A stretch of DNA of 64,000 nt, taken from Paractinoplanes ovalisporus (GTDB taxonomy: Bacteria > Actinomycetota > Actinomycetes > Mycobacteriales > Micromonosporaceae). Under the pieces are notes generated by a model that saw only the letters and a list, made by a program, of their open reading frames with translations, made no database searches and was not told the origin of the DNA. Positions 23,224 through 38,881 of the stretch are shown here, piece after piece (position 1 is the first letter of the stretch; every line of letters starts with the position of its first letter). The stretch spans positions 1-64,000 of the forward strand of contig NZ_JAENHP010000022.1 in the NCBI RefSeq assembly GCF_016834655.1. Reading direction: 5' to 3'. Made by a program: the position numbers and the translations under genes.

Positions 23224-24240
23224 TCAGGGATGCACGAGCGCGTGGGTGAGGGTCGCGGTGGGGTGCATGGCGAGGTCGAGCGGGCTGGGCGGCAGCCCGG
23301 CGCGGATCACGAGGTCGCCGACGGCGGCGATCATGGCGCCGTTGTCGGTGCACAACCGGGGCGTGGGTACGCGCAACTCGATCCCGGCCTTGGCGCATCG
23401 CTGAGCGGTGAGCGCGCGGACCCGGCTGTTCGCGGCCACCCCGCCGACCATCAACAGCGTCGAGGCGTCGTGTTCGTGGCAGGCGGCGACGGCCTTGCGG
23501 GAGAGGGTGTCGGCGACGGCTTCCTGGAACGAGGCGGCGACGTCGGCGACGGGCACCGGGCCCGGGTGACGTTCGACCCAGCGCGCGACGGCGGTCTTGA
23601 GGCCGGAGAACGAGAACGTGTGGGTGCCGGGCAGGGCTCGCGGAAACGCGATGGCGTGCGGGTCTCCCTCGCGGGCGACCCGGTCGATGGCCGGTCCGCC
23701 GGGGTAGGACAGGCCGAGGAGGCGGGCGACCTTGTCGAAGGCTTCGCCCGCGGCGTCGTCGAGAGTGTCGCCGAGGTGGACGATCGGGTCGCGGGCGAGG
23801 TCGCCGAGCAGCAGCAGTGAGGTGTGTCCGCCGGACACGATCAACGCGATGCACCGGCCGGGCAGCGGCCCGTGTTCGAGGGTGTCGACGGCGGCGTGAC
23901 CGGCCAGGTGGTGCACCCCGTAGAGGGGCACCGCGAGGGCCAGCGCGTACGCCTTGCCGGCGGCGAGCCCGACCTGCACGGCGGAGGCCAGGCCGGGGCC
24001 GGCGGTGACCGCGACGGCGTCGATGTCGGCGAAGGCGACGCCGGCCCGGTCGAGGGCGTGCCGGACCATCGCCGGCAGGGCTTCCAGGTGGGCGCGGGCG
24101 GCGATCTCGGGGACGACGCCGCCGAAGCGGGCGTGCTGGTCCATGCTGGAGGCGAGGGCGTCGCCGAGCAGCACGCCGTCGCGGACGAGGCCGACGCCGG
24201 TCTCGTCGCACGAGGTCTCGATGCCCAGTACGAGCGGCAC
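23224..24240 (-). CDS. tsaD: tRNA N6-adenosine threonylcarbamoyltransferase (TsaD homologue)
   Basis: A 338-residue Kae1/Qri7/TsaD protein, which transfers threonylcarbamoyl to A37 of ANN-decoding tRNAs. It starts [18 protein letters not shown]; metal ligands H111 and H115 sit in VHHLAGHA, with [24 protein letters not shown] and the C-terminal Asp in LCTDNGAM. All key residues are present. The gene follows alaS by 20 bp on the same strand and has none of its usual partners (tsaB, tsaE, rimI) beside it, so it may be a second copy. If so, the metal-type operator upstream of alaS would control both. Confidence 0.9.
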
Positions 24241-24260: not shown

Positions 24261-26867
24261 TCATGCCGCGGCGACCAGGTCACGCAGGCGGGTCAGCAGC
24301 TCGGCCGGGCTCCCGGTCGCCTTGCCCTGGGCGAACGCGTCGTTGCCGCCTCCCCGGCCGGACAGCAGTTGCTTGACCAGGTCGGCGGCGGACAGGCCGC
24401 GCTCGGCCGCGGCCGGAGTGGTGGCGACGACCGCGCCGGAGCCGGCGATCACGCCGATGACGGCGGGGCGGTTGCCGAACCGGTCGCGGACCTTCTCGGC
24501 GAGCTTGCGGCCGTCGCCGGTGGTGGTGACTCCGACGTAGGTGATGCCGCCGAGGTCGAGCGCGCCGGCCGTGTACTCGGCGACGTCGAGGTCGAGGATC
24601 CGGTCGCGCAGGTCGCCGGCTTCGCGTTCGACCTGCTTCATCCGGGCCAGCAGGGCGGTGACCCGCTCCGGTAGTTCCTCGGGGCGGGCCTTGAGCTGGG
24701 CGGCGAGCCGGCCGACGAGGTCGCGTTCGCGGGCCAGGTAGCGGAACGCCTCGATGCCGGTGACCGCCTCGATGCGACGTTGCCCGGCGCCGACCGACTG
24801 CTCGCCGGTGATCGCGAGCGAGCCGATCTGAGCGGACCGGTCGACGTGGGTGCCGCCGCACAGCTCCCGCGACCAGTCCCCGCCGATCTCCACCACGCGG
24901 ACGGTTTCGTCGTAGGTCTCGCCGAACAGGGCCAGTGCGCCTTCGGCCCGGGCCTGGTCAAGGGGCAGGTAGCGCACGCCGACCGGCAGGTCGCGGCGGA
25001 TCGCGAGGTTGGCGACCTCCTCGACCTCGCTGCGGGTGGCGTCGGACAGGCCGCCGCGCCAGGCGAAGTCGAGGCGCAGATAGCCGGGGCGGTTGTACGA
25101 GCCGGACTGCAGCGCGCCGGGGCCGAGCACCTGCCGCAGCGCGGCGTGCACCACGTGGGTGCCCGAGTGGGCCTGCCGGGCGCCGGTACGCCATTCCGGG
25201 TCAACCTGCGCGTGCACGGTGTCACCGACCGCGATGGTGCCGTCAAGGATCCGTACGGTGTGCGCGATCAGATTCTTGATCGGGCGTTGCACGTCGATGA
25301 CCTCGGCGCGCAGGTTCGGGCCGGTGAGCAGGCCGGCGTCGGAGTCCTGACCGCCGCTCTCGGCGTAGAAGGGGCTGCGGTCGAGCGCGACGGTGACGAT
25401 CTCCCCGGCTCCCCACACGGCCAGGACCCGCGACTCGGTCTCGAGGGTCTCGTACGCGAGCCAGTCGGTCGGCCCGTGGGCGTCGAGCACGGTGCGGTAG
25501 GCGGACAGGTCGGCGTGGCCGGTCTTGCGGGCCTTGGCCCGGGCGCGCTGCTCGGCCATCAGCGCCCGGAACCCGTCGGCGTCGACGTCGAGGCCCTGCT
25601 CGTCGGCGATCTCCAGGGTCAGGTCGATCGGGAAGCCGTACGTGTCGTGCAGCTGGAACGCCTTCTCACCGGTGATCGCCGAGCGGCCGGCCGCTCTGGT
25701 CTCGGCGATCGCCGTGTCGAGGATCGTGGTGCCGGCCCGCAACGTACCGAGGAAGGTTTCCTCTTCGCCGTAGGCCGTCTGCTCGATGCGGTCGAACTCC
25801 TTGGCCAGCTCGGGATAGGACGGCGCCATGCAGTCCCGGGCCACCGGCAGCAGCTCGGGCAGCGCCCGTCCGTGCCAGCCGAGCAGCCGCATGGCCCGGA
25901 TCGCCCGGCGCATGATCCGGCGCAGCACATAGCCACGACCCTCGTTGGCGGGTGTGACACCGTCGCCGATGAGCATCAGTGCCGTGCGGACGTGGTCGGC
26001 GATGACCCGCAGACGTACGTCGTCGGGGTGGCTCTGCGCGGCGGCGGGCCCGGAGTGCACACCGTAGGTCTTGCCGGTCAGCTCGGCGGCCCGGCTCAGG
26101 ATCGGCCGGACCTCGTCGATCTCGTACAGGTTGTCGACGCCCTGCAGCAGCGAGGCCATGCGTTCCAGGCCCATGCCGGTGTCGATGTTCCTGGCCGGAA
26201 GATCCCCGACGATCCGGAAGTCCTCCTTGGAGACCACGTCGGCGATCTCGTACTGCATGAAGACCAGGTTCCAGAATTCGAGGTAGCGGTCCTCATCGAC
26301 CTCGGGACCGCCCTCGGCGCCGTAGGCCGGACCGCGGTCGTAGTAGAGCTCGGAGCACGGCCCGGCCGGTCCGGGGATGCCCATCGACCAGAAGTTGTCG
26401 CTGCGGCCCCGGCGCACGATCCGGTCGGCCGGCAGCCCGGTGCGCTTCCAGATGTCGATGGCCTCGTCGTCGTCGAGGTAGACCGTCGCCCAGATCCGTT
26501 CCGGATCGAGCCCGAAGCCGCCCTGGTCGATCGGCTTGGTGGACAGCTCCCACGCGAGCGGGATGGCGTCGGCCTTGAAGTAGTCGCCGAACGAGAAGTT
26601 GCCGTTCATCTGGAAGAACGTGCCGTGGCGCGAGGTCTTGCCGACCTCGTCGATGTCCGGTGTGCGGATGCACTTCTGCACCGACGTCGCCGTGGCGTAG
26701 GGCGGTGTCTGCTGACCGAGGAAGTACGGCACGAACTGCACCATGCCCGCCGCGACGAACAGCAGGTTCGGATCGCCGACGGCCGGCAGCGGCGCACTCG
26801 GCACGACCGCGTGGCCGTGCGCCTCGAAATGCGCAAGGTAGCGCCGTTTGATCTCCGCCGTCCGCAA
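24261..26867 (-). CDS. alaS: Alanine--tRNA ligase
   Basis: An 868-residue enzyme from the TTG at 26867 (reads [20 protein letters not shown]), preceded by AAGGGG; an in-frame ATG at 26903 is the alternative. The catalytic domain has [37 protein letters not shown] and the class II motifs. The editing domain has HSGTH and CGGTH zinc ligands, and the C-terminal DHHA1-like region has [13 protein letters not shown]. Activity looks intact. Wording in several blocks departs from the usual actinobacterial AlaS, and the neighbours are not the normal alaS-ruvX context, so this could be a paralogue. A TTGC-N9-GCAA operator lies directly upstream. Confidence 0.9.
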
Positions 26868-26880
26868 GACGCACCCCTTA

Positions 26881-26897
26881 TTGCCGCTGAGTTGCAA
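26881..26897. promoter_or_regulatory. Nur-box-like operator 1 (alaS / def remnant)
   Basis: TTGCCGCTGAGTTGCAA, i.e. TTGC-N9-GCAA, lies between the divergent alaS (TTG 26867) and the deformylase remnant (GTG 26917). The same 17-bp pattern recurs at 27248, 28264 and 33264. The spacing equals that of the Streptomyces Nur box (TGC-N9-GCA). Confidence 0.6.
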
Positions 26898-26916
26898 ATG
26901 CATAGTATGGGCAACT

Positions 26917-27258
26917 GTGCAGACGCGTTCCGGTACCCCGCGCCCGATCACCCGCCACGGCGAGCAGGTGCTGCATCGCCGGTGCGCCGAGGTGACCATG
27001 TTCGACGACGGTCTCGCCCAGCTCGTGGCCGACATGTTCGCCGGCATGGCCGCGGCCCGCGGGGTCGGGCCGGCCGCGAATCAGATCGGCGTCGATGCCC
27101 GCGTGTTCGTCGTCGACTGTCCCGACGCCACCGGCGCGCACGTGGTGGCGCCGAGCATCCCGGCGTCGGCGCCGGCACCCCGAACGACGCGAGCTGAGGC
27201 CTGCGGCGAGGATAGGGCAGCCTTACTCAAATGCCTCTCGATTGGTGTTGCAAGATAG
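26917..27258 (+). pseudogene. Peptide deformylase N-terminal remnant
   Basis: From the GTG at 26917 the frame reads [20 protein letters not shown], later [19 protein letters not shown], then [20 protein letters not shown]. This is the N-terminal half of a class I peptide deformylase. Motif 1 is GVGPAANQ instead of GxGLAAxQ. The frame then leaves the family (after HVVAPSIP), and motifs EGCLS and HExxH are missing, so no active enzyme can be made. It shares operator 1 with alaS. A recent partial deletion is likely, since the surviving 70 codons are well conserved. Confidence 0.75.
27210..27225. promoter_or_regulatory. Weak iron-box-like sequence upstream of sod
   Basis: GGATAGGGCAGCCTTA matches about 11 of 16 positions of the IdeR/DmdR core (GGTTAGGCTAACCTAA). 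It lies 23 bp before operator 2. A second metal input for sod is possible but weak. Confidence 0.25.
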
Positions 27259-27264
27259 TGGCAA
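27248..27264. promoter_or_regulatory. Nur-box-like operator 2 (sod)
   Basis: TTGCAAGATAGTGGCAA, ending 31 bp before the sod ATG. The following bases (GCAATAGC-N6-ACGGCAAGTGG-N6-CAGC) are nearly the same as those after operator 3, so both promoters share more than the palindrome. Confidence 0.7.
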
Positions 27265-27295
27265 TAGCTTGATCACGGCAAGTGGAAGGTTCAGC

Positions 27296-27925
27296 ATGGC
27301 CATCTACACGCTTCCTGACATGCCCTACGACTACGGCGCGCTCGAGCCCGCGATGAGCGGCCAGATTCTCGAGCTGCACCACAGCAAGCACCACGCCGCG
27401 TACGTCAAGGGCAGCAACGACACCCTCGACCAGCTGGCCGAGGCCCGCGACAAGGGCGACTACCACGCCCTGGTCGGCCTGGAGAAGACGCTCGCGTTCA
27501 ACCTGTCCGGGCACGTCCTGCACTCGATCTTCTGGAACAACCTGCGTCCCGGCGGCAGCGCCGACCGGCCCGAGGGTGACCTCGAAGCCGCGATCATCGA
27601 GCACTTCGGTTCGTACGAGGCGTTCTCCGCGCAACTGTCCACGGCGACCAAGGGTGTGCAGGGCTCGGGCTGGGGCGTTCTCGCGTGGGAGCCGCTGTCG
27701 CAGCGGCTCATCGTCGAGCAGATCTACGACCACCACGGCAACGTCGGGCAGGGCTCGACGCCGATCCTGGTCTTCGACGCCTGGGAGCACGCGTACTACC
27801 TGCAGTACAAGAACGTGCGCCCCGACTACGTCGACCGCCTGTGGAACCTGGTCAACTGGGCCGACGTCACCAAGCGTTTCGACGCCGCCCGCGCCGCCGG
27901 CAACCCGATCATCGTCGCGCCCTGA
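27296..27925 (+). CDS. sodF: Superoxide dismutase, Fe/Mn family (Fe-type SodF-like)
   Basis: A 209-residue cytoplasmic enzyme converting superoxide to oxygen and hydrogen peroxide. Metal ligands His28 (in ELHHSKHH), His76 (VLHSIFWNN), Asp161 and His165 ([11 protein letters not shown]) are all present. The GSGWGVL and DHHGNV stretches match actinobacterial SodF/SodA; Fe versus Mn cannot be settled from motifs alone. The start is the ATG at 27296. In Streptomyces, sodF is repressed by the nickel regulator Nur, and the palindrome just upstream fits that pattern. A 93-residue ORF follows after 2 bp. Confidence 0.93.
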
Positions 27926-27927
27926 TC

Positions 27928-28209
27928 GTGGACGCCGCCGACGCTTTTGCCGGCGCGCAACGTGCCGCCGGGGTCATCGCGGCCAAGCACCGCGGTGACC
28001 TCGCCGGCGCGCACGACCTGCTGGCCGCCTTCCCCGACGAGCAGGCCCGCACCCAGGGCTTCCAGCTGCTGGCCGAGTTGGCGCTGACGATTCTGCGCAC
28101 CCAGACCGGCGAGACCATGGACGAGATCGTGCAGGAGATCAGCCTGCACATCGCGGCCGCGGCGGTGAGCGGGCCGCCGGCGGAAGGCGGCCCGCGGCAA
28201 GATCGGTGA
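27928..28209 (+). CDS. Small conserved-context protein of unknown function
   Basis: A 93-residue protein from the GTG at 27928, two bases after the sod stop, so it is co-transcribed. It is predicted all-alpha: AADAFAGAQRAAGVIAAKHR, then DLAGAHDLLAAFPDEQ, FQLLAELALTILRTQTG and ETMDEIVQEISLHIAAAA. No signal peptide, no cysteines. I do not recognise the family; it resembles small helical proteins found as hypothetical actinobacterial genes. Its place in the sod transcript suggests a link to metal or oxidative stress. Confidence 0.7.
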   Translation: MDAADAFAGAQRAAGVIAAKHRGDLAGAHDLLAAFPDEQARTQGFQLLAELALTILRTQTGETMDEIVQEISLHIAAAAVSGPPAEGGPRQDR

Positions 28210-28263
28210 GGCTTCACACAGCTTCGCGCCCCTTCTTCTCGCCCCGATCTGCTTGGTACGTTC

Positions 28264-28280
28264 TTGCCTAACTTTGGCAA
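28264..28280. promoter_or_regulatory. Nur-box-like operator 3 (FecCD-type transporter operon)
   Basis: TTGCCTAACTTTGGCAA ends 30 bp before the GTG at 28311. The trailing bases TAGCCGAATCAAGGCAAGTG match those after operator 2. Confidence 0.7.
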
Positions 28281-28310
28281 TAGCCGAATCAAGGCAAGTG
28301 GGGGATCAGC

Positions 28311-29399
28311 GTGTCGACCGTCCTCTCGGACGTCCGGGAGCCCGACGTGCTGGGGGTCGGTGCGCAACGCCGCCGCACGAGCGTCTGGCTCGTGTCGCTG
28401 AGCGCCGGGCTGATCGTCACCGCGGTGGTCGCGGTGGGCACCGGGGCCATCGCGATCGATCCCCTCACCGTGGCCCGCATCCTCGGCCATCAGTTGTTCG
28501 GCCTGGGCGAGGTGACCTGGGAGCCGCCGCAGGAGGCCATCGTCTGGCAGGTACGGCTCCCGCGCGTGCTGCTCGGCATGCTGGTCGGCGGCGGGCTCGC
28601 CGTCTGCGGCGTCGCGCTGCAGGCCATGGTGCGCAACGTGCTGGCCGACCCCTATCTGCTGGGCATCAACTCGGGTGCGTCCAGCGGCGCCGCCGCGGCC
28701 ATCCTGTTCGGGGCGGGCGCCGGCTTCGGCCAGTACGCCCTGTCCACCAGCGCTTTTCTCGGCGCGCTGGCCGCCTCGCTGCTGGTCTTCCTGATCGCGC
28801 GCAGCGGCGGCCGCATCACCTCGATCCGGCTGCTGCTCTCCGGGGTCGCCGTCGGCTACGCGCTGTACGCCACCACCAGCTTCCTGATCTTCGCCTCGGG
28901 ATCGGCCGAGGGTGCTCGCTCGGTCATGTTCTGGCTGCTCGGCTCGCTCGGCTTGGCCCGCTGGGACGCGTTGCTCACGGTGGCCGCGGTCGTGATCGGC
29001 GGCACCACGCTCTATCTGACCGTCGTGGGCCGTCGGCTCGACGCGCTCGCGGTCGGTGACGAGACCGCGCACACCCTGGGGATCAACCCCGACCGTTTCC
29101 GCGTACGGCTTCTGGTCGTGGTCTCGCTCTGCGTCGGTGTGCTGGTCTCCGCGTCGGGCAGCATCGGCTTCGTCGGCCTGGTCGTGCCGCACCTGGCCCG
29201 TCGGCTGGTCGGCGCTCCGCACGTCCGTGTGGTGCCGGTGGCCGCCCTGCTCGGCGCGATCCTGCTGGTCTGGGCCGACGTGATCGCCCGGGTGCTGCTG
29301 GCCCCGCAGGAGATCCCGATCGGCATCATCACCGCCCTGCTCGGCGCCCCGTTCCTGCTCGTCCTCATCCGCCGACTGCACGCCGGAGGCATCGCGTGA
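28311..29399 (+). CDS. FecCD-family ABC transporter permease
   Basis: A 362-residue inner-membrane permease with 9-10 helices. LRLPRVLLGMLVGGGLAVCG-like sequence (here QVRLPRVLL), LADPYLLGINSGASSGAAAA and GLVVPHLARRLVG are FecCD signatures. It closely resembles permeases that databases often label putative F420-0 transporters, a name based on genome patterns and not on transport data. Substrates of the wider family are siderophores, haem, cobalamin or metal complexes. First gene of a five-gene operon with 4-bp or shorter overlaps. Operator 3 suggests control by a metal regulator, perhaps nickel or cobalt supply. Confidence 0.88.
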   Translation: MSTVLSDVREPDVLGVGAQRRRTSVWLVSLSAGLIVTAVVAVGTGAIAIDPLTVARILGHQLFGLGEVTWEPPQEAIVWQVRLPRVLLGMLVGGGLAVCGVALQAMVRNVLADPYLLGINSGASSGAAAAILFGAGAGFGQYALSTSAFLGALAASLLVFLIARSGGRITSIRLLLSGVAVGYALYATTSFLIFASGSAEGARSVMFWLLGSLGLARWDALLTVAAVVIGGTTLYLTVVGRRLDALAVGDETAHTLGINPDRFRVRLLVVVSLCVGVLVSASGSIGFVGLVVPHLARRLVGAPHVRVVPVAALLGAILLVWADVIARVLLAPQEIPIGIITALLGAPFLLVLIRRLHAGGIA

Positions 29400-30354
29400 A
29401 GAGAATCGCCGCCCTGTCCACCGTCCTCGTCCTGGCTGCCGGGTGCGGCGCCGCCGCCGACGACACCCAAGCGGGATCGTCGGGCGCCGGCTACCCGTTG
29501 ACGATGAAGAACTGCGGCGCCGACGTCACCTTCGACAAGGCCCCCGAGCGTCTGGTCATGCTCAAGAGCTCGGCCGTGCCGTTCCTGCACGACCTGGGCG
29601 TGATGGACCGGGTCACCGCCCGCGCCGGGCAATATCCGAAGGAGTACTACGACGCGGCGACGCAGGCTGAGATCGACAAGGTCCCGCTGCTCACCGACAA
29701 GACCGACACCAGCGGCCACCTGCAGATCAGCAAGGAGGTCGTGATCAGTCAGCAGCCCGACCTCGTGCTCGGCGAGGTCGACAACCTGTCGCGCGACACG
29801 CTCTCGGCCGTGGACATCCCGCTGCTCGAAGAGCCGACCATGTGCGAGGGCAACACCGACGCGCCCACCTTCGACTCCATTTACGCGCAGATGGAGGCGT
29901 ACGGGAAGGTCTTCGGTCGTCAGTCCGAGGCGGCGACTGCGGTCACGGCGCTCAAGGACCGCATGTCCAAGATCAAAGCCGAGAAGAGCGGCCGTACGGC
30001 GGCAGTCCTGTACCCGACCGTCGGCGGTGGAGTCACGTACGCGTACGGAAATGCCTCCATGGCGCACCCCCAGCTGGAGGCGGCCGGGTTCACGAACGTG
30101 TTCGCCGACAGCAAGGAACGCGTCTTCGAAGTCACCCTGGAGGAACTGCTCGGACGCAACCCCGACGTGCTGATCCTGCTCTACGGCGACGGCGACCCCA
30201 AGGCGGTCGAGCAGGCGGTCACCGGGCTGCCCGGCGCCGAGAAGCTGAAGGCCGTGCAGAACAAGAACCTGATGACGCAGCTGTTCAACTTCACCGAGCC
30301 GCCGACGCCGCTGTCGATCGACGGCCTCGAGCGCATCGTGGAACGGTTCCCGGG

Positions 30355-30358
<4 letters not shown>
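29396..30358 (+). CDS. ABC transporter substrate-binding lipoprotein
   Basis: A 320-residue class III (TroA/BtuF-like) binding protein. The signal peptide has the lipobox LAAGC (Cys ~17), so it is anchored on the outer membrane face. YPLTMKNCGADVTFDKAPER opens the domain; the conserved extra Cys pair (NCGA and MCEG) probably forms a disulfide. The GTG start overlaps the permease stop by 4 bp. It delivers the ligand to the upstream permease; the ligand is unknown. Confidence 0.88.
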
Positions 30359-31157
<799 letters not shown>

Positions 31158-31161
<4 letters not shown>

Positions 31162-31820
31162 CCGCCCAGGACCGCATCAACGACTACTGGACCGGCCGCG
31201 CCCCCAGCTACGCCGAATACCAGCGGCAGCCCGCGCGGCTGGCCGACGACCTCGCGGCCTGGTCGCAGGTCTGGGCCGGCGCACTGCCCCCGGCGCCGCT
31301 GGACGTGCTCGACGTCGGCACCGGCAGCGGCCAGGTCGCCGGGGTGCTGGCCGGGCTCGGTCACCGGGTCACGGGTATCGACCTGTCACCCGGCATGCTC
31401 GAGCAGGCCCGTTCCACGTACGGGAATGTGGGTTTCCGCCTCGGTGACGCCGTCGAGCCGCCTTTCCCGCCGTCGTCCTTCGACGCGGTGACCGGCCGCT
31501 ACGTCATGTGGACGCTGCGCGACCCCGGCGCCGCGGTGGCGAACTGGATGCGGCTGCTTCGCCCCGGCGGCACGGTCGCGGTCGTCGACAGCACGTGGTT
31601 CCCGGACGGGCCGCAGTCGTTCTACGATCCGTCGGTGTGGGAAGCCCTGCCCCTGGCCCAGGCCGAGTCCATCAACCAGACCGCCGCCGTCCTCGAGCAG
31701 GCCGGCTTGGCCGACGTCACGGTCACGCCGCTGACCACGATTTATGAGCTGGACGAGAAGTACGGGGTCGCGCCGGGTCACGAGCTGCAGACGCAATATC
31801 TGATCACCGGGCACGTCTGA
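31158..31820 (+). CDS. Class I SAM-dependent methyltransferase
   Basis: A 220-residue methyltransferase. The SAM motif LDVLDVGTGSGQVAG is followed by GIDLSPGMLEQAR, then VTGRYVMWTLRDPGAAVANW and RLLRPGGTVAVVD, as in type-11 methyltransferases. Its ATG overlaps the ATPase stop (ATGA), so it is translated with the transporter. It may modify a metallophore or cofactor handled by the transporter; this is inference from operon position only. Confidence 0.85.
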
Positions 31821-32431
31821 TGGAGTTCCGCGAGGCGCTGCGCGGCCGGCGGATCGTCCGCAATTACCGCCCGGACCCGGTACCCGACGAAGTGGTCGAG
31901 CGGATCGTCAAGGTCGTGCACCGCGCGCCCAGCGCCGGTTTCAGCCAGGGCCACCGCCTGGTCGTGGTCACCGACCCCGCCGTGCGGGCCGCATTGGCCG
32001 CGGTCGCCGAGCCCTGGTATCTGGAGAACGGCTTCGAGCCGTGGATCTCGCTGGCTCCGGTGCAGATCGTGCTCGGCATCCGCGAGCAGTCGTACCACGA
32101 GCGCTACACCGAGGCCGACAAGCTCGAGGAGGACGGCGAGGAGATACCGTGGCCGGTGCCGTTCTGGTGGTTCGACTCCGGCGCCCTGTTCACGCTCCTG
32201 CAGCTGGCCGCGGCCGACGAGGGCCTGGCCAGCGGCTTCTACAGCCCGGCCCCGCCCGAGGAACTGGCCGCTCTGGCCGCCGCCGCGGGATTGCCGGACG
32301 ATGTCGCGGTGGCCGGGGTGCTGACCCTTGGCTATCCGGCCGGCGACGGCGCTGTGCCGTCGGCCAAGCTGGCCAAGCACCGCAAGCCGCTCAATGAGCT
32401 CGTCACCTGGCGACGCGCCGCCGCGAGTTGA
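31820..32431 (+). CDS. Nitroreductase-family flavoprotein
   Basis: A 203-residue nitroreductase-fold protein expected to bind FMN and use NAD(P)H. EALRGRRIVRNYRPDPVPDE is the family N-terminus, and HRAPSAGFSQGHR gives the FMN-contact region. Near the C-terminus, VAVAGVLTLGYPAGD matches the family end block. TGATG overlap with the methyltransferase. Last gene of the operon. It could reduce a metal chelate or a cofactor precursor, but the substrate is unknown. Confidence 0.83.
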   Translation: MEFREALRGRRIVRNYRPDPVPDEVVERIVKVVHRAPSAGFSQGHRLVVVTDPAVRAALAAVAEPWYLENGFEPWISLAPVQIVLGIREQSYHERYTEADKLEEDGEEIPWPVPFWWFDSGALFTLLQLAAADEGLASGFYSPAPPEELAALAAAAGLPDDVAVAGVLTLGYPAGDGAVPSAKLAKHRKPLNELVTWRRAAAS

Positions 32432-32546
32432 TCCACCGGCCTTCCGTCCGGCTCAGATCCGTCGAGTAGGTGGCCGCCGATCCGGTCGGTGCGGCGTAGT
32501 GGGCCGGTCCGCGACACAGGCTGACTCCCGGGCCGGGTCCGCCTCC

Positions 32547-32654
32547 CGCGGGAGGCTCGTTCCAGGGCGGGAGCGCGAAGCACTGCTGGTAGATGACGTG
32601 AAGCTGGGCCTGCCGGGCGCGCAGGCCGGCCGCCGTCACCGGTTCGATGACCAC
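32547..32654 (-). pseudogene. GNAT N-terminal fragment
   Basis: MVIEPVTAAGLRARQAQLHV followed by IYQQCFALPPWNEPP is the first ~36 residues of a GNAT acetyltransferase (Y-x-x-CF-x-x-PPWNE). The following codons do not continue the fold and run to a stop at 32403. No other piece of the domain is seen. A relic between the nitroreductase and fur genes; the remaining 32432-32721 interval has no other supported gene. Confidence 0.45.
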
Positions 32655-32721
32655 CGTCGCGGTCCCTTTCTCGTCTCGGCGTTACCGTGGACGCCGGTCA
32701 GGGGTGAACGAGAGGTGGATC

Positions 32722-33165
32722 GTGACGGGAACACGGCAGCTCGACAGGATGGACGCGGTCCGCGACCTCGTGCGGGCGAACGGCCGCCGCTGGACGGTGG
32801 CCAAGGGCGCGGTGGTCGAGGCGCTGCTCGGCACGGACGAGCACCTGTCGGTGCAGCAGGTGCACGAGCAGATCGGCGCCCGGTTCCCGCAGATCGACCG
32901 ATCGACCGTGCATCGCGTTCTGCTCGGGCTGGCCGAGGAGGACGTCGTGCACGTGCTGGGGCGGCAGGGCGAGGCGCGGTACGGAATGGCCGATCGTCCG
33001 CACCACCACGCCGTGTGCGCCCGGTGCGGCCGGGAGGCCGAGATCCCGGCCAAGGTCATCGCGCCCGCTCTCAAGTCGGCCGCGGCGGCGACGGGATTCA
33101 CCTTCACCGCGGGCAGCATCACCCTGACCGGCCTGTGCGAGTCATGCTCGGCCGGAACAGGCTGA
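32722..33165 (+). CDS. Fur-family metalloregulator (Nur/Zur/Fur type)
   Basis: A 147-residue regulator. The winged-helix domain spans ~1-85 (LSVQQVHEQIGARFPQIDRSTVHRVLLGL region). The metal domain has HHH at 94-96, and two CxxC pairs at Cys99/102 and Cys139/142 form the structural zinc site. The GTG at 32722 follows GAGGTGG. Metal specificity cannot be read directly. The nearby palindromes have Nur-box geometry and the presumed targets (Fe-SOD, metal-complex transporter) fit a nickel regulator, so Nur is my leading guess. The palindrome at 33264 lies 99 bp after its stop. Confidence 0.85.
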   Translation: MTGTRQLDRMDAVRDLVRANGRRWTVAKGAVVEALLGTDEHLSVQQVHEQIGARFPQIDRSTVHRVLLGLAEEDVVHVLGRQGEARYGMADRPHHHAVCARCGREAEIPAKVIAPALKSAAAATGFTFTAGSITLTGLCESCSAGTG

Positions 33166-33263
33166 AGGCGCCCCGGCTGGATCATCGCTCCGGAGCGCCC
33201 TCGCAGGTCGGAATGACGGGTCACGGTCAATGAACGCCAGTTCCTGATGCCATCATCTAGTAA

Positions 33264-33280
33264 TTGCCAGTCGGATGCAA
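33264..33280. promoter_or_regulatory. Nur-box-like palindrome 4
   Basis: TTGCCAGTCGGATGCAA, the same TTGCM-N7-KGCAA pattern as operators 1-3. It lies between the convergent ends of the Fur-family gene and the frameshifted GNAT gene, so it has no evident target unless an untranslated RNA or antisense transcript starts here. It may be a chance match. Confidence 0.4.
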
Positions 33281-33290
33281 CAAGCGATCT

Positions 33291-33880
33291 CTAGGCGGGG
33301 TCGACCGTTTTCACCATCACGCAGTTCTTCAGGCCCTTGGGGCGGTCGTAGGTGAAGCCGAGCCGCTCGTAGAGACGCCGCGTGCCGTTGTAGAGGAACG
33401 ACGCCGACATCTTCTTGGTCTGGCCGGTCAGGTCGTGGGGGTAGCTCTCGACCCGCCCGCCGCCGGCCCTCGCGATCAGGTCGAGCGCCCCGGTGATGGC
33501 CAGCTCGGTGATGCCCTGACGCCGGTGGCGTTATCGACGAAGACGCAGGTGATCCGGTAGTCGGGATCGGCGGTCTTGGTGGCGTCGTACTGCTTGCGGT
33601 GGTGCAGGGTGGGCAGCTCGGCCGGCGTGCCGAACTCGGCCCACGCGATGGCCTCGTCGCCGTCCATCACCAGCGCGGCGTGCGCTTCGCCCCGCTCGAC
33701 GTAGGTCTTCTTCAGCGCCCGGTTGGCCTCGGCGCCTTGGCCGCGTTCGGGGCCGTCGGGGTGGAACCAGATGCACCAGCAGCCTCCGAAGATGCCGTTG
33801 TGCCGCTGCACCAGCGCATCGAAGGCGGGCCAGGTCTCGGGGCTCAGTGGCGCGCTCGTGTACGACGACTCGGTGGCCAT
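33291..33880 (-). pseudogene. GNAT acetyltransferase with a single-base frameshift
   Basis: Frame one (from ATG 33880) reads TSAPLSPETWPAFDALVQRH, GGCWCIWFHPDG, then YRITCVFVDN. At about 33530 the homology moves to another frame: RHRRQGITELAITGALDLIA, SYPHDLTGQTKKMSASFLYN and GTRRLYERLGFTYDRPKGLK, ending VKTVDPA at the stop at 33291. Restoring one G after GATAA gives the expected VFVDKRHRRQGI acetyl-CoA loop. The rest of the sequence is undamaged, so this is either a very recent mutation or a sequencing error. Confidence 0.75.
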
Positions 33881-35662: not shown

Positions 35663-38600
35663 ATGCCCCAGGGTCTGTCCTATGCCGACGCCGTCCGTCT
35701 TCTGGGTGGTTCCGGCCCGCTCGCCAAAGCCGTCGACAATCTGCTCGGCGGGGTGCTCTCGGTGGCGACCGCGGGCGGGAGTGATCTCGCGATCAGCCTG
35801 TTCGACGCCAAGACCGAGGTGGTCCGGCTGGGCGGTCTGGTGTCGGCCACGATCAATGATTCCGTACGGGGGTTGGGTCGCTACGACCGCAGCGAGCGCC
35901 TGCAAGCGGCGCACGTGTGCCTGGTCGTGGCCGCCTTCTTCGAAGCGCTCGACGACTGCCTCGACGCGGCCGGCATCGACCGGCCCGGGTTCAGCCGCGA
36001 GGACCAGCTGCGGGTCGTCGTCCCGGGAGCCGGAACCGGCCTGATGAGCGACCTTCTCGCCGCGCCCGTGCCGATGCCCGCGCCCGACGTCTCGTACGCC
36101 GCGCTCCTGGACCGGCTCGGGGACTGGTTCGGTGCCACCGCCGAGCGGATGATCTTCCACTTCCCGGGGCTGGCCGTCTGGGAGAACGCCGGCGACTCGG
36201 CCCGGCGCGAGCTCACGAGCCGCCTCCGCGACCGTCTGCCCGGCCTCGCCCGCGACCGGTACGACGAGACGCACCGCCGCCTCGCCGCCGACATCCCCGA
36301 GTTCGCGATCTGGGCCGACCGCCTCGAGGCCCGCGCGACCGCCCACGGCCTGGAACGTCTCGAATCCGTGCTGCGGCAGGCCACGTCGGGCCGCGACCCG
36401 GACCGCCACCGCGCCGCGCTCGCCCGCGCCTATCGGGCCGAGCTCAACCGCCCGGTCCTCGGCGGCGACGCGGGCGATCTGCTGCTCCCGGCGCTCGGAA
36501 CCGCATACCTGGACCCGGTCTTCCGCGTCCGCGCGGCCGGCCCGGGTGCCCGGCCCGCCGACGACCACTGGTGGACCGACGCCGCGACGCGCACCGACAT
36601 CGCCGCTTTCCTGGCCGCGCATCTCACCACCACCCAGGCCACCGAGGCCCCGATGCTGCTGCTCGGCCAGCCCGGCGCCGGCAAGTCGTCGCTCACCCGC
36701 ATCCTGGCCGCCCGGCTGCCCGCGAGCGACTTCTTCGTCTGCCGGGTGGTGCTGCGCGACGTGCCGGCCGAGGCCGAGATCCAGGACCAGATCGAGCTGG
36801 CCCTGCGCGCGGCGATCGGCGAGACGGTGTCGTGGGCCGCGATCGCCGGGACCGGGGGAGCGCTGCCGGTCGTGCTGCTCGACGGCTTCGACGAGCTGCT
36901 GCAGGCGACCGGGTTGCATCAGAGCGACTACCTGCAGCGGGTGGCCGCCTTCCAGCAACGGGAGGCGGCGCTCGGCCGGCCGGTGGCGGTCATGGTCACC
37001 AGCCGGGTCGCCGTCGCCGACCGGGCCCGCCTGCCCGCGGGCGCTCTCGCCGTACGGCTGGAACCGTTCGACGACGACCAGATCGAGCGCTGGCTGGCCG
37101 TCTGGAACGCGACCAACAACCTGACCCGGCCGCTGACCCGGGAGGTGCTGCGGCCGCTGCGCCACCTCGCCGAACAGCCGTTGCTGCTGCTCATGCTCGC
37201 CCTCTACGACGGCACCGGGCACGGGTTGCGGGACAGCTCGGTGCCGCTGGACGGCGGTCAGCTCTACGAGCGGCTGCTGGCGTCGTTCGCGGCCCGGGAG
37301 GTGCGGCGCGTCCACGCCGGGCAACCCGACGAGCAGATCCCGGCCCTGGTCGAGCAGGAGCTGCTGCGTCTGTCGGTGGTGGCGTTCGCGATGTTCCACC
37401 GGCTGCGCCTGTGGGTCACCGAGCGCGAACTGGACGACGACCTCGCCGGGCTCGGCCTCGGCCCGTCGCGCGCGGGCCGCACCGAGGCCTTCCGCACGCC
37501 GCTGACCGCCGGGCAGGAGATGGTCGGGCGCTTCTTCTTCATCCAGCGCGCGCGGGCCGTCCGCGACGATCAGACCCTGCAGACGTACGAGTTCCTGCAC
37601 GCCACATTCGGCGAATATCTCGTGGCCCGGCTCGTCGTGCAGGCCGTCCGCGACACGGCCGCGCGCGAGGCGGCGAGCACGCTGGCGCTGCGCCTCGGCC
37701 CGGCCAACGACGACGATCTGCTGAAGTCGCTGCTGGGGTACACGGCATTGACCGCGCGCGCCACGATCCTGTCCTTCGTCAGCGATCTGTTCGCCGGGCC
37801 CGGCCGCGACCGGTTGCGCGAGTGGCTGGTCGCGCGCACCAGCCAGGCGGTGACGCGTCCGGCGTACGGGGAAACGGCTTATCGCCCCGTCGACAAGCGC
37901 GTGGACCACTGGATGTCGACGTACTCCTTCAACCTGATGCTGCTGACCCTGGCCTGCGGCGGATCGCTGCGTGCGTCCGAGCTGTTCACGCGGGCGGCCG
38001 ACCCGGCGTACTGGATGCGCGCCTCGGCCCTGCAGTGGCGGGCGGCGATCCCCGGTGACATGTACATGGACGCGCTGGAGGTCCTGACCGTGCGTCGCGA
38101 GTGGCACGAGGGCCGCCGCGACATCGTGCTCGAGTTGGCCCTGGACTGGGCGCCGACGTTCCCCGACCCGATGGACGTCACCTGGTTCAACGACCACCCG
38201 CCGGGCACCGCGACGCCCGAGGTCCACCGGTCCGAGTTCGGCCTGCACACGCTGCTCAAGTCGATGCAGCTGAGCAATTCGCTGGGCGACAGCACGATGC
38301 TGCACGCGTTGGAACCGCTGGTGGCCCGCGTGCCCGACGCGCTGACCACCTTCGTCGGCGACGAGTCCCTGGCCCACAGCCTGGTCGAGCTGTGGCTGGC
38401 CTCCGCCCTGGACACCCCGGATTTGCTGGCCGCCCGCTATGACCGTGTGACGTCGGCGATCCTCACGCTGATCGCGCGCGGGACCAGCGCCGAAGCCGCG
38501 GTCACGCTGCTGATGCAGGCCTTGCGGGCCGACGCCGACCGCCTCCCACCGGCCCGGGTCGTGGGCATCGCCCATGTGCTCGTCGCCGTGCCGTCGACGC

Positions 38601-38881
38601 GCGGGGCCGACCTCGCCCTACGCTCCCTGCTGACCCCTCGGGTGGCCGCGACGGACTCGGCGCCCCCTCTGATGGCAATGCTCCTGACCGGTTACCTGGA
38701 AGCCTTGGACGACGCGCTGCTGGCTCAGGCCCTCCTGGTCGTCACCGATTCGCCGTCGGTCGACCCCGCGAAGATCCGCGACCTCGTACGGCAGCTGGAC
38801 GGCCTCGACCACGGGCGCCGGGCCAAGACCGTGGAAAGCCTGGACCCGGCCCTGCCCGAACGGCTCTCGATCTACCGCTGA
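35663..38881 (+). CDS. NACHT-domain STAND NTPase (1072 aa)
   Basis: Large cytoplasmic NTPase. Residues ~1-150 are helical and rich in short hydrophobics (AKAVDNLLGGVLSVATAGGS), like the helical N-terminal domains of actinobacterial NACHT proteins. Walker A LLGQPGAGKSSLTRIL is near 333, Walker B VVLLDGFDELLQATG near 410, sensor MVTSRVAVADRARLP near 445, with the NACHT tail EFLHATFGEYLVARLV near 645. The C-terminal ~400 residues are alpha-helical and probably form the sensor. Bacterial NACHT proteins include anti-phage factors. No separate effector gene is visible. Its stop overlaps the convergent ABC operon end by 10 bp. The start at 35663 has only a weak RBS. Confidence 0.85.
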   Translation: MPQGLSYADAVRLLGGSGPLAKAVDNLLGGVLSVATAGGSDLAISLFDAKTEVVRLGGLVSATINDSVRGLGRYDRSERLQAAHVCLVVAAFFEALDDCLDAAGIDRPGFSREDQLRVVVPGAGTGLMSDLLAAPVPMPAPDVSYAALLDRLGDWFGATAERMIFHFPGLAVWENAGDSARRELTSRLRDRLPGLARDRYDETHRRLAADIPEFAIWADRLEARATAHGLERLESVLRQATSGRDPDRHRAALARAYRAELNRPVLGGDAGDLLLPALGTAYLDPVFRVRAAGPGARPADDHWWTDAATRTDIAAFLAAHLTTTQATEAPMLLLGQPGAGKSSLTRILAARLPASDFFVCRVVLRDVPAEAEIQDQIELALRAAIGETVSWAAIAGTGGALPVVLLDGFDELLQATGLHQSDYLQRVAAFQQREAALGRPVAVMVTSRVAVADRARLPAGALAVRLEPFDDDQIERWLAVWNATNNLTRPLTREVLRPLRHLAEQPLLLLMLALYDGTGHGLRDSSVPLDGGQLYERLLASFAAREVRRVHAGQPDEQIPALVEQELLRLSVVAFAMFHRLRLWVTERELDDDLAGLGLGPSRAGRTEAFRTPLTAGQEMVGRFFFIQRARAVRDDQTLQTYEFLHATFGEYLVARLVVQAVRDTAAREAASTLALRLGPANDDDLLKSLLGYTALTARATILSFVSDLFAGPGRDRLREWLVARTSQAVTRPAYGETAYRPVDKRVDHWMSTYSFNLMLLTLACGGSLRASELFTRAADPAYWMRASALQWRAAIPGDMYMDALEVLTVRREWHEGRRDIVLELALDWAPTFPDPMDVTWFNDHPPGTATPEVHRSEFGLHTLLKSMQLSNSLGDSTMLHALEPLVARVPDALTTFVGDESLAHSLVELWLASALDTPDLLAARYDRVTSAILTLIARGTSAEAAVTLLMQALRADADRLPPARVVGIAHVLVAVPSTRGADLALRSLLTPRVAATDSAPPLMAMLLTGYLEALDDALLAQALLVVTDSPSVDPAKIRDLVRQLDGLDHGRRAKTVESLDPALPERLSIYR

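Follow-up and report, generated by a model that had tools for sequence, protein, structure and literature searches.

A predicted Nur regulon of tandem boxes in one Paractinoplanes locus, with a candidate small RNA that matches sodN

The window analyzed here is a 64,000-nucleotide stretch of DNA from Paractinoplanes ovalisporus, located on a 185,723-base contig (C14) of an 11.4-Mb genome, and its nearest named loci are those of Paractinoplanes bogorensis and P. ferrugineus. We propose that one locus of this window quite probably constitutes a Nur regulon with four outputs, one of which is an RNA directed against sodN. More specifically, nickel-loaded Nur would bind two adjacent 17-bp boxes over the -10 region and block transcription. 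When nickel is scarce, four transcripts would start, namely alaS2-tsaD (encoding a second alanyl-tRNA synthetase and TsaD), sodF, the operon of a FecCD-type importer, and a minus-strand small RNA, which would pair with the 5' end of the sodN mRNA and so silence sodN. An earlier note on this DNA had described a Nur-like metal regulon at this locus; its interpretation is partly supported, being right in direction, while it named the wrong Fur protein and missed both the tandem architecture and the RNA.

The sites that this note had reported, four TTGC-N9-GCAA palindromes at 26881, 27248, 28264, and 33264, are all present and are the sole matches to the pattern within the window. They exceed chance expectation, since shuffled sequences gave a mean of 0.30 matches and a maximum of 2, and 0 of 100 shuffles reached 4. 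As a description of the element, the 17-bp palindrome is nonetheless incomplete, because at each site two 17-bp boxes abut to form a 34-bp tandem, of which the palindrome makes up one half, with neighboring one-mismatch boxes at 26898 and 28281. We scored each 34-bp element by its matches among 16 fixed letters (Table 1). The elements at 26881, 27248, and 28264 cover a plausible -10 sequence, as read from the letters, and stop just before the likely ribosome-binding sites of alaS2 (start at 26867, minus strand), sodF (27296), and the FecCD permease gene (28311). The element at 33247-33280 is oriented toward the minus strand. It sits where fur1 and an acetyltransferase-like gene (a name read from the open reading frame [ORF], with no family match) converge with their 3' ends, and no recognized protein gene lies behind it. 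The 33264 site thus precedes neither the Fur gene nor a transporter; behind it comes a conserved minus-strand sequence that is probably a small RNA.

A genome-wide scan, which the earlier note had suggested, came out favorably for the 34-bp element and not for the single palindrome. A 34-column sequence-only model, trained on 21 boxes, found these four places (5 rows) and no others in the whole genome at E ≤ 10, all four being members of its training set, with modest scores of 15.4-19.9 bits among the 150 of 388 first-look candidates that were scored. The single TTGC-N9-GCAA pattern is not enriched (63 sites versus 184 for the backward pattern); a lone site therefore carries little weight, and we dropped single matches as evidence for the regulon. 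A first 34-bp pattern, taken from two of the sites with at most 3 mismatches allowed, recovered in the same genome the four sites plus noise at the control level. Across 200 relatives its matches were mostly noise (61 of the 200 genomes, with similar numbers for the controls), and they were set aside apart from 11 places that were selected by eye.

The tandem element recurs in relatives at the same genes. We surveyed gene order in 22 loci (the window, L023, L024, L065, and L102-L119) and found alaS2, def2 (a peptide deformylase paralogue), and tsaD2 together in 9 of them (L023, L024, L102, L103, L108, L109, L110, L113, and L117); in this count, the alaS of L103 runs off the end of the stretch, L110 holds only a piece of alaS, and L102 and L023 are probably the same species. 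Upstream of alaS2, the best site stood at -46 to -49 from the start in all eight relatives scanned, with scores of 11-15 of 16. A score of at least 11 was also reached by the upstream regions of sodF (12 of 14), def (9 of 10), nikA (4 of 4), and cbiM (5 of 5), compared with 113 of 3,000 random 176-bp windows. Loci L055-L065 had been picked by the box itself, and the scan favors them. The boxed NikA-like and CbiM genes of the relatives score above the Pfam and below the NCBIfam cut-offs. In addition, an exact TTGC-N9-GCAA box precedes sodF in Streptantibioticus. The targets first suggested for this locus, alaS-tsaD, sodF, and the FecCD-type transporter, thus hold and recur, and the relatives place alaS2-def2-tsaD2, sodF, nikA, cbiM, and fecCD behind what is the same predicted operator.

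Which protein would occupy these boxes? The genome holds five Fur-family genes, and the one within the locus, fur1 (at 32722), had been offered as the Nur-like regulator. We ruled out Fur1 as Nur: in a comparison with known structures, Nur (3eyy) ranked only ninth (E = 1.5e-8), and the alignment gives Fur1 a counterpart of only the first of the three nickel-site histidines, so that two of the three are absent (His70, His72, and His126 in what we take to be the Nur numbering). The Nur orthologue (L002) lies on contig C44 (C44:727089-727421); it matches 3eyy with an E value of 5e-45, the next best chain giving 1.2e-22, and has counterparts of all three histidines. Eight genomes with tandem boxes were checked, and each has a Nur orthologue, 70-97% identical to L002; of the 33 Fur proteins found in them, 30 were examined, and for none of these was the Fur1/Fur2 group the closest. 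The spacing of the window sites, as the earlier note had supposed, is that of the published Nur box, tTGCaa-N5-ttGCAA (PMC3919588). Because of these findings (the histidines of the C44 protein, the occurrence of Nur in every box-bearing genome checked, the lack of Fur1/Fur2-like proteins among those examined, and the shared spacing), Nur, encoded on another contig, is the likeliest regulator of the boxes, as judged from sequence.

The boxes could instead belong to Fur1, which would sense another metal (iron, zinc, or cobalt) and control the cassette independently of Nur. Fur1 or Fur2 genes do lie near alaS2, def2, tsaD2, and sodF in many loci, most of them chosen by similarity to Fur1, and best sites of at least 11 of 16 precede 5 of 14 fur and 4 of 7 fur2 genes; the eight box-bearing genomes, however, have Nur and gave no Fur1/Fur2-type protein among those examined, the boxes also stand before NikA-like and CbiM genes, and the spacing is Nur's. 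We regard control by Fur1 as rather improbable, and Fur1 and Fur2 may serve as auxiliary regulators beside Nur. At E ≤ 1e-15, the Fur1 search had matches in 31 of 200 family genomes, not all of which are Fur1-type; the weak matches L118 and L119 were rejected as such, both being Nur orthologues. An older name of tsaD is gcp. In some Frankia, nur adjoins gcp (PMC4531530), which we note as a lead only.

Behind the fourth box lies a candidate small RNA predicted to fold into two hairpins, the second of which carries the decamer GCGATGATCC. The site at 33247-33280 and the sequence behind it are kept in L023 and L024, and L060 has this sequence, too, behind a box but in a different context. An Rfam scan of window positions 26500-33600 gave one match (E = 4.6), located elsewhere, and none at the candidate RNA. 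Given 42 boxes scoring at least 13, from loci chosen by box or by Fur1 with the loop sequence unused, we counted the 9-mers within 150 nt and found that GCGATGATC was the commonest, occurring near 11 of the 42 boxes (10 of 40 when counted by distinct box sequences), compared with a mean of 0.03 and a maximum of 2 for 1,999 permuted 9-mers. A strict box-plus-decamer pattern occurred in 16 of 354 family genomes, at 17 places, and its backward version at none.

We also assembled 34 box-plus-decamer loci from Micromonosporaceae, of which 31 hold the decamer in a hairpin (a sorting made by eye); the mean z over all 34 is -3.2. The remaining three, L076, L078, and the strict-pattern place L181, have a box-like stretch and the decamer without a hairpin around it; they were rejected as true RNAs and left out of the alignment. 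In the 31 aligned sequences, 12 of 15 stem pairs are changed on both sides, with a small covariation term (-1.72 of -24.18 kcal/mol). The decamer is invariant across the 34 loci because it served as the search key; the 9-mer count near boxes, the count by distinct boxes, and a covariance model, R1, are independent of that key. R1 was built from 5 sequences with the box excluded. Among 200 genomes, it exceeded 80 bits in 6 (4 of them training loci) and reached 53.7 bits in a seventh, and 42 of the 200 had some match at E ≤ 1. Among the matches listed, all 14 loci at or above 33 bits (4 of them training loci) contain the decamer, and 13 have a box scoring at least 11 within 170 nt upstream, the exception being L158.

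The RNA-like sequence was found in varied positions: in the leaders of sodF (L058, L186, L190, and L193), nikA (L108, L185, L187, and L189), and def-tsaD (L103); divergent from sodF (L155, L157, L159, and L188); behind sodF (L113, L161, and L192) or cbiM (L023, L024, L060, and L183); and, in the window, convergent with fur1. This placement list has 34 rows, 3 of which are the hairpin-less rejects and 10 of which have no such neighbor in the stretch covered. The 5' hairpin (33246-33209, minus strand) has a conserved core of its own, GTTGC-K-TGGCCGTGACCCG, in 4 of 5 aligned sequences and altered in the window, and this core may be a second pairing or protein-binding site. A search for a second target of the 5' hairpin found its complement in 20 of 252 loci, all of which are the RNA itself by coordinates. 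In L056 (7482-7515) and L057 (7479-7512), the loop core directly follows the box and precedes a hairpin-like repeat, outside its loop, divergent from a methyltransferase gene.

The genome holds both sodF and sodN, and the decamer points to the latter. GCGATGATCC is the reverse complement of GGATCATCGC, which lies at the predicted 5' end of the sodN mRNA of the same genome, starting seven bases after a TAGTGT -10 sequence, from which the sodN start was placed, and just before the sodN ribosome-binding site. In two sets of sodN regions sharing three genomes, GGATCATCGC stands at this fixed place in 23 of 30 and 18 of 19 regions, and its 9-nt core in 25 of 30 and 19 of 19. All 10 RNA-bearing genomes examined have GGATCATCGC before sodN, with one sodN copy each. 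In genome G187, a T replaces the first G of the sodN leader sequence, and the box-linked sequence, GCGATGATCG, would keep a G-U pair. One of the two sodN places in a Nonomuraea record lacks the core sequence. The plasmid collection lists a Nonomuraea record of 11.85 Mb (NZ_LT559118.1, L253) as a plasmid.

Alternatively, 33162-33246 might be a mere terminator between convergent genes, with a loop that has no target. There is indeed a strong hairpin between fur1 and the convergent gene, and in L023 and L024 it lies between fur1 and the cbiM region. A terminator of this kind is, however, hard to reconcile with related sequences in the 5' leaders of sodF, nikA, and def2 and divergent from sodF, with a loop core that is the commonest 9-mer near boxes in loci chosen without it, with stems that vary through paired changes, and with the complementarity of the core to the sodN 5' region. 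We consider it very unlikely and favor a small RNA that would be transcribed from its own Nur-type box.

Several observations weigh against the proposed regulon and its RNA. At the level of the boxes, the FecCD permease regions of all four relatives scanned reach at least 11 only weakly (11-12 of 16), the sodF regions of L105 and L107 have no box (9 and 8 of 16), and tsaD, which usually follows def, has its own box in only 2 of 8 cases. To our knowledge, the Nur boxes of Streptomyces are single; tandem occupancy is our assumption, and the Fur1/Fur2 proteins could compete for the boxes. The window's own site misses the strict box-plus-decamer pattern (0 matches in this genome, G000) because its second box is degenerate. 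Among the R1 matches listed below 33 bits, only 3 of 16 (L168, L170, and L174) have both decamer and box, and 5 of the 30 sodN regions lack even the 9-nt core. As for the pairing, the exact complementarity is 10 nt versus 18-19 bp for s-SodF, the anti-sodN RNA of Streptomyces, and co-folding of the window pair gains only -1.5 kcal/mol. The duplex energy of that pair is unremarkable: among 200 shuffled sodN leaders, 31 gave equally good pairing. Part of the decamer is also base paired within its hairpin (on average, 7.1 of its 10 bases are free); the case for pairing between the RNA and sodN therefore rests on conservation.

The locus genes are collected in Table 1. The genes tsaD and alaS2 probably form one operon. 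Another alaS copy, 61-64% identical to alaS2, lies at C35:19763-22399 in a 12-kb locus with no box scoring at least 12 of 16, so that for alaS the genome has a boxless second copy. AlaRS2 keeps the motifs HSGTH and CGGTH, and TsaD keeps HHLAGH, which we take to be zinc or metal sites; we therefore ruled out that these proteins are metal-free backup paralogues. In L023 and L024, def2 is longer than the remnant in the window, and between it and tsaD there is also a second Fur gene. The FecCD-type transporter resembles models named F420-0 transporter, at scores under their cut-offs. Its substrate is read as nickel because of its operator, and the importer probably takes up nickel or a nickel chelate. 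The short orfX has no Pfam or NCBIfam match at E ≤ 0.001. Elsewhere in the window, at 35663-38881 (plus strand), a 1,072-residue protein carries at its N terminus an NNH7 domain (NACHT N-terminal helical domain 7; Pfam, 230 bits), with no PADLOC match at E ≤ 0.001.

Table 1. Features of the locus, in window coordinates; box scores are matches among 16 fixed letters.
Feature	Coordinates	Strand	Basis or remark
tsaD, 20 bp downstream of alaS2	23224..24240	-	TIGR03723 equivalog, above cut-off
alaS2, second alanyl-tRNA synthetase, start TTG	24261..26867	-	NCBIfam TIGR00344, 768 bits
Tandem Nur-type box, putative alaS2 promoter	26881..26914	-	15/16; possible -10 TACTAT inside
def2, peptide deformylase paralogue remnant, between alaS2 and sodF	26947..27204	+	66% identity to residues 1-90 of the 169-residue L024 query
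Tandem Nur-type box, putative sodF promoter	27248..27281	+	15/16; possible -10 GATAGT
sodF, Fe/Mn superoxide dismutase	27296..27925	+	PF00081, PF02777
orfX, short ORF	27928..28209	+	Recurs after sodF and, as a more distant copy, after alaS2 in many relatives
Tandem Nur-type box, putative FecCD operon promoter	28264..28297	+	15/16; possible -10 TAACTT
FecCD-type permease	28311..29399	+	PF01032, 301 bits
Substrate-binding protein of FecCD-type transporter	29396..30358	+	PF01497
ABC ATPase	30355..31161	+	PF00005
S-adenosylmethionine (SAM) methyltransferase, FecCD operon	31158..31820	+	PF08241
Nitroreductase-family protein	31820..32431	+	PF00881; BluB model match far under its cut-off
Fur1, divergent Fur-family protein	32722..33165	+	Family match, structure ranking, histidine alignment
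Candidate small RNA, ~85 nt, two hairpins	33162..33246	-	R1, 80.8 bits (window sequence is one of 5 training rows); GCGATGATCC at 33188-33179
Tandem Nur-type box before candidate small RNA	33247..33280	-	14/16; L023 and L024 keep both this box and the RNA sequence that follows it

The presence of translation enzymes in this set admits another explanation, namely that alaS2, def2, and tsaD2 are copies that would confer self-resistance to a natural product, one that chelates metal or targets translation, and that they share a switch because chelation mimics nickel starvation. Deformylase is the target of a hydroxamate antibiotic, and a plasmid of Streptomyces sp. SAT1 (L255, 4309-8667) carries tsaD-GNAT-alaS behind a 12/16 tandem box near gamma-butyrolactone genes; as background, 14 of 4,000 80-bp windows from five plasmid-collection loci, real boxes included, reach a score of 12. 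On the other hand, no biosynthetic cluster was recognized with the cassette, though no search was aimed at one, and metal supply accounts more simply for boxes common to sodF, importers, and the RNA. We judge self-resistance unlikely. On other plasmids, the alaS of Streptomyces NBC_01014 has no box scoring at least 12 of 16, and that of Tsukamurella none scoring at least 11.

What would be new in this regulon is that an RNA has an operator to itself and that paralogues of translation enzymes are predicted to be under Nur; the regulon extends the known control by Nur of sodF and nickel uptake and the known anti-sodN RNA of Streptomyces, s-SodF. In an open-access full-text library, no title among the matches listed dealt with such an RNA outside Streptomyces or with alaS, def, or tsaD under Nur. 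The small RNA family seems to be undescribed, and it comes with a concrete predicted target in a phylum for which few small RNAs with known targets are on record (PMC3919588). Our data suggest a second design of the switch by which nickel selects between superoxide dismutases, one that uses an RNA with its own Nur operator and not a trimmed mRNA tail. They would also connect nickel sensing with the charging and modification of tRNA and with deformylation, and they raise the question of the metal that these enzymes use in actinobacteria. As a speculation to which we give little weight, Micromonosporaceae may run a full nickel-sparing program in which Nur would control, in addition to importers and Fe-SOD, the release of an anti-sodN RNA module that has its own promoter and was inserted behind Nur boxes again and again. 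Nur would also bring in a dedicated AlaRS-deformylase-TsaD set because the housekeeping versions are in practice nickel loaded, thereby coupling nickel supply to translation.

Compared with known systems, the locus most resembles the Nur regulon of Streptomyces coelicolor, which includes sodF and nikABCDE (PMC3919588, PMC7055735). The two share the box spacing, the sodF target, a metal importer, the partner gene sodN, and a Nur orthologue in the genome. They differ in that here the boxes are 34-bp tandems, alaS2, def2, and tsaD2 are predicted targets, a FecCD-type importer replaces NikABCDE in this locus, and a free-standing RNA has its own box. Spare enzyme copies under a metal sensor, one of them a tRNA synthetase, are a likeness to Zur regulons, but the sensor here would be Nur and the spare copies are of AlaRS, Def, and TsaD; motifs presumed to bind metal are retained in AlaRS2 and TsaD. 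In the Zur regulons, the backup copies are paralogues of zinc enzymes (PMC6103462). A further parallel is offered by RyhB and related small RNAs under Fur, which are repressed by a metal sensor and silence a metal-using superoxide dismutase (PMC3919588), with iron as the metal in place of nickel. The closest counterpart of the candidate RNA is s-SodF of S. coelicolor, which is ~90 nt long, derives from the sodF 3' untranslated region (3'UTR), pairs with the first 18 nt of the sodN mRNA, and is Nur dependent (PMC3919588, PMC9438474). Both have a similar length, both are made, or predicted to be made, when Nur is off, and both are complementary to the 5' end of the sodN mRNA, in our case over 10 nt of a predicted end. 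However, s-SodF arises by processing of the sodF 3'UTR and lacks a separate promoter, whereas the candidate RNA has its own tandem box, lies ~5 kb from sodF in the window, occurs in varied places without a fixed host gene, and would present its 10-nt match within a hairpin.

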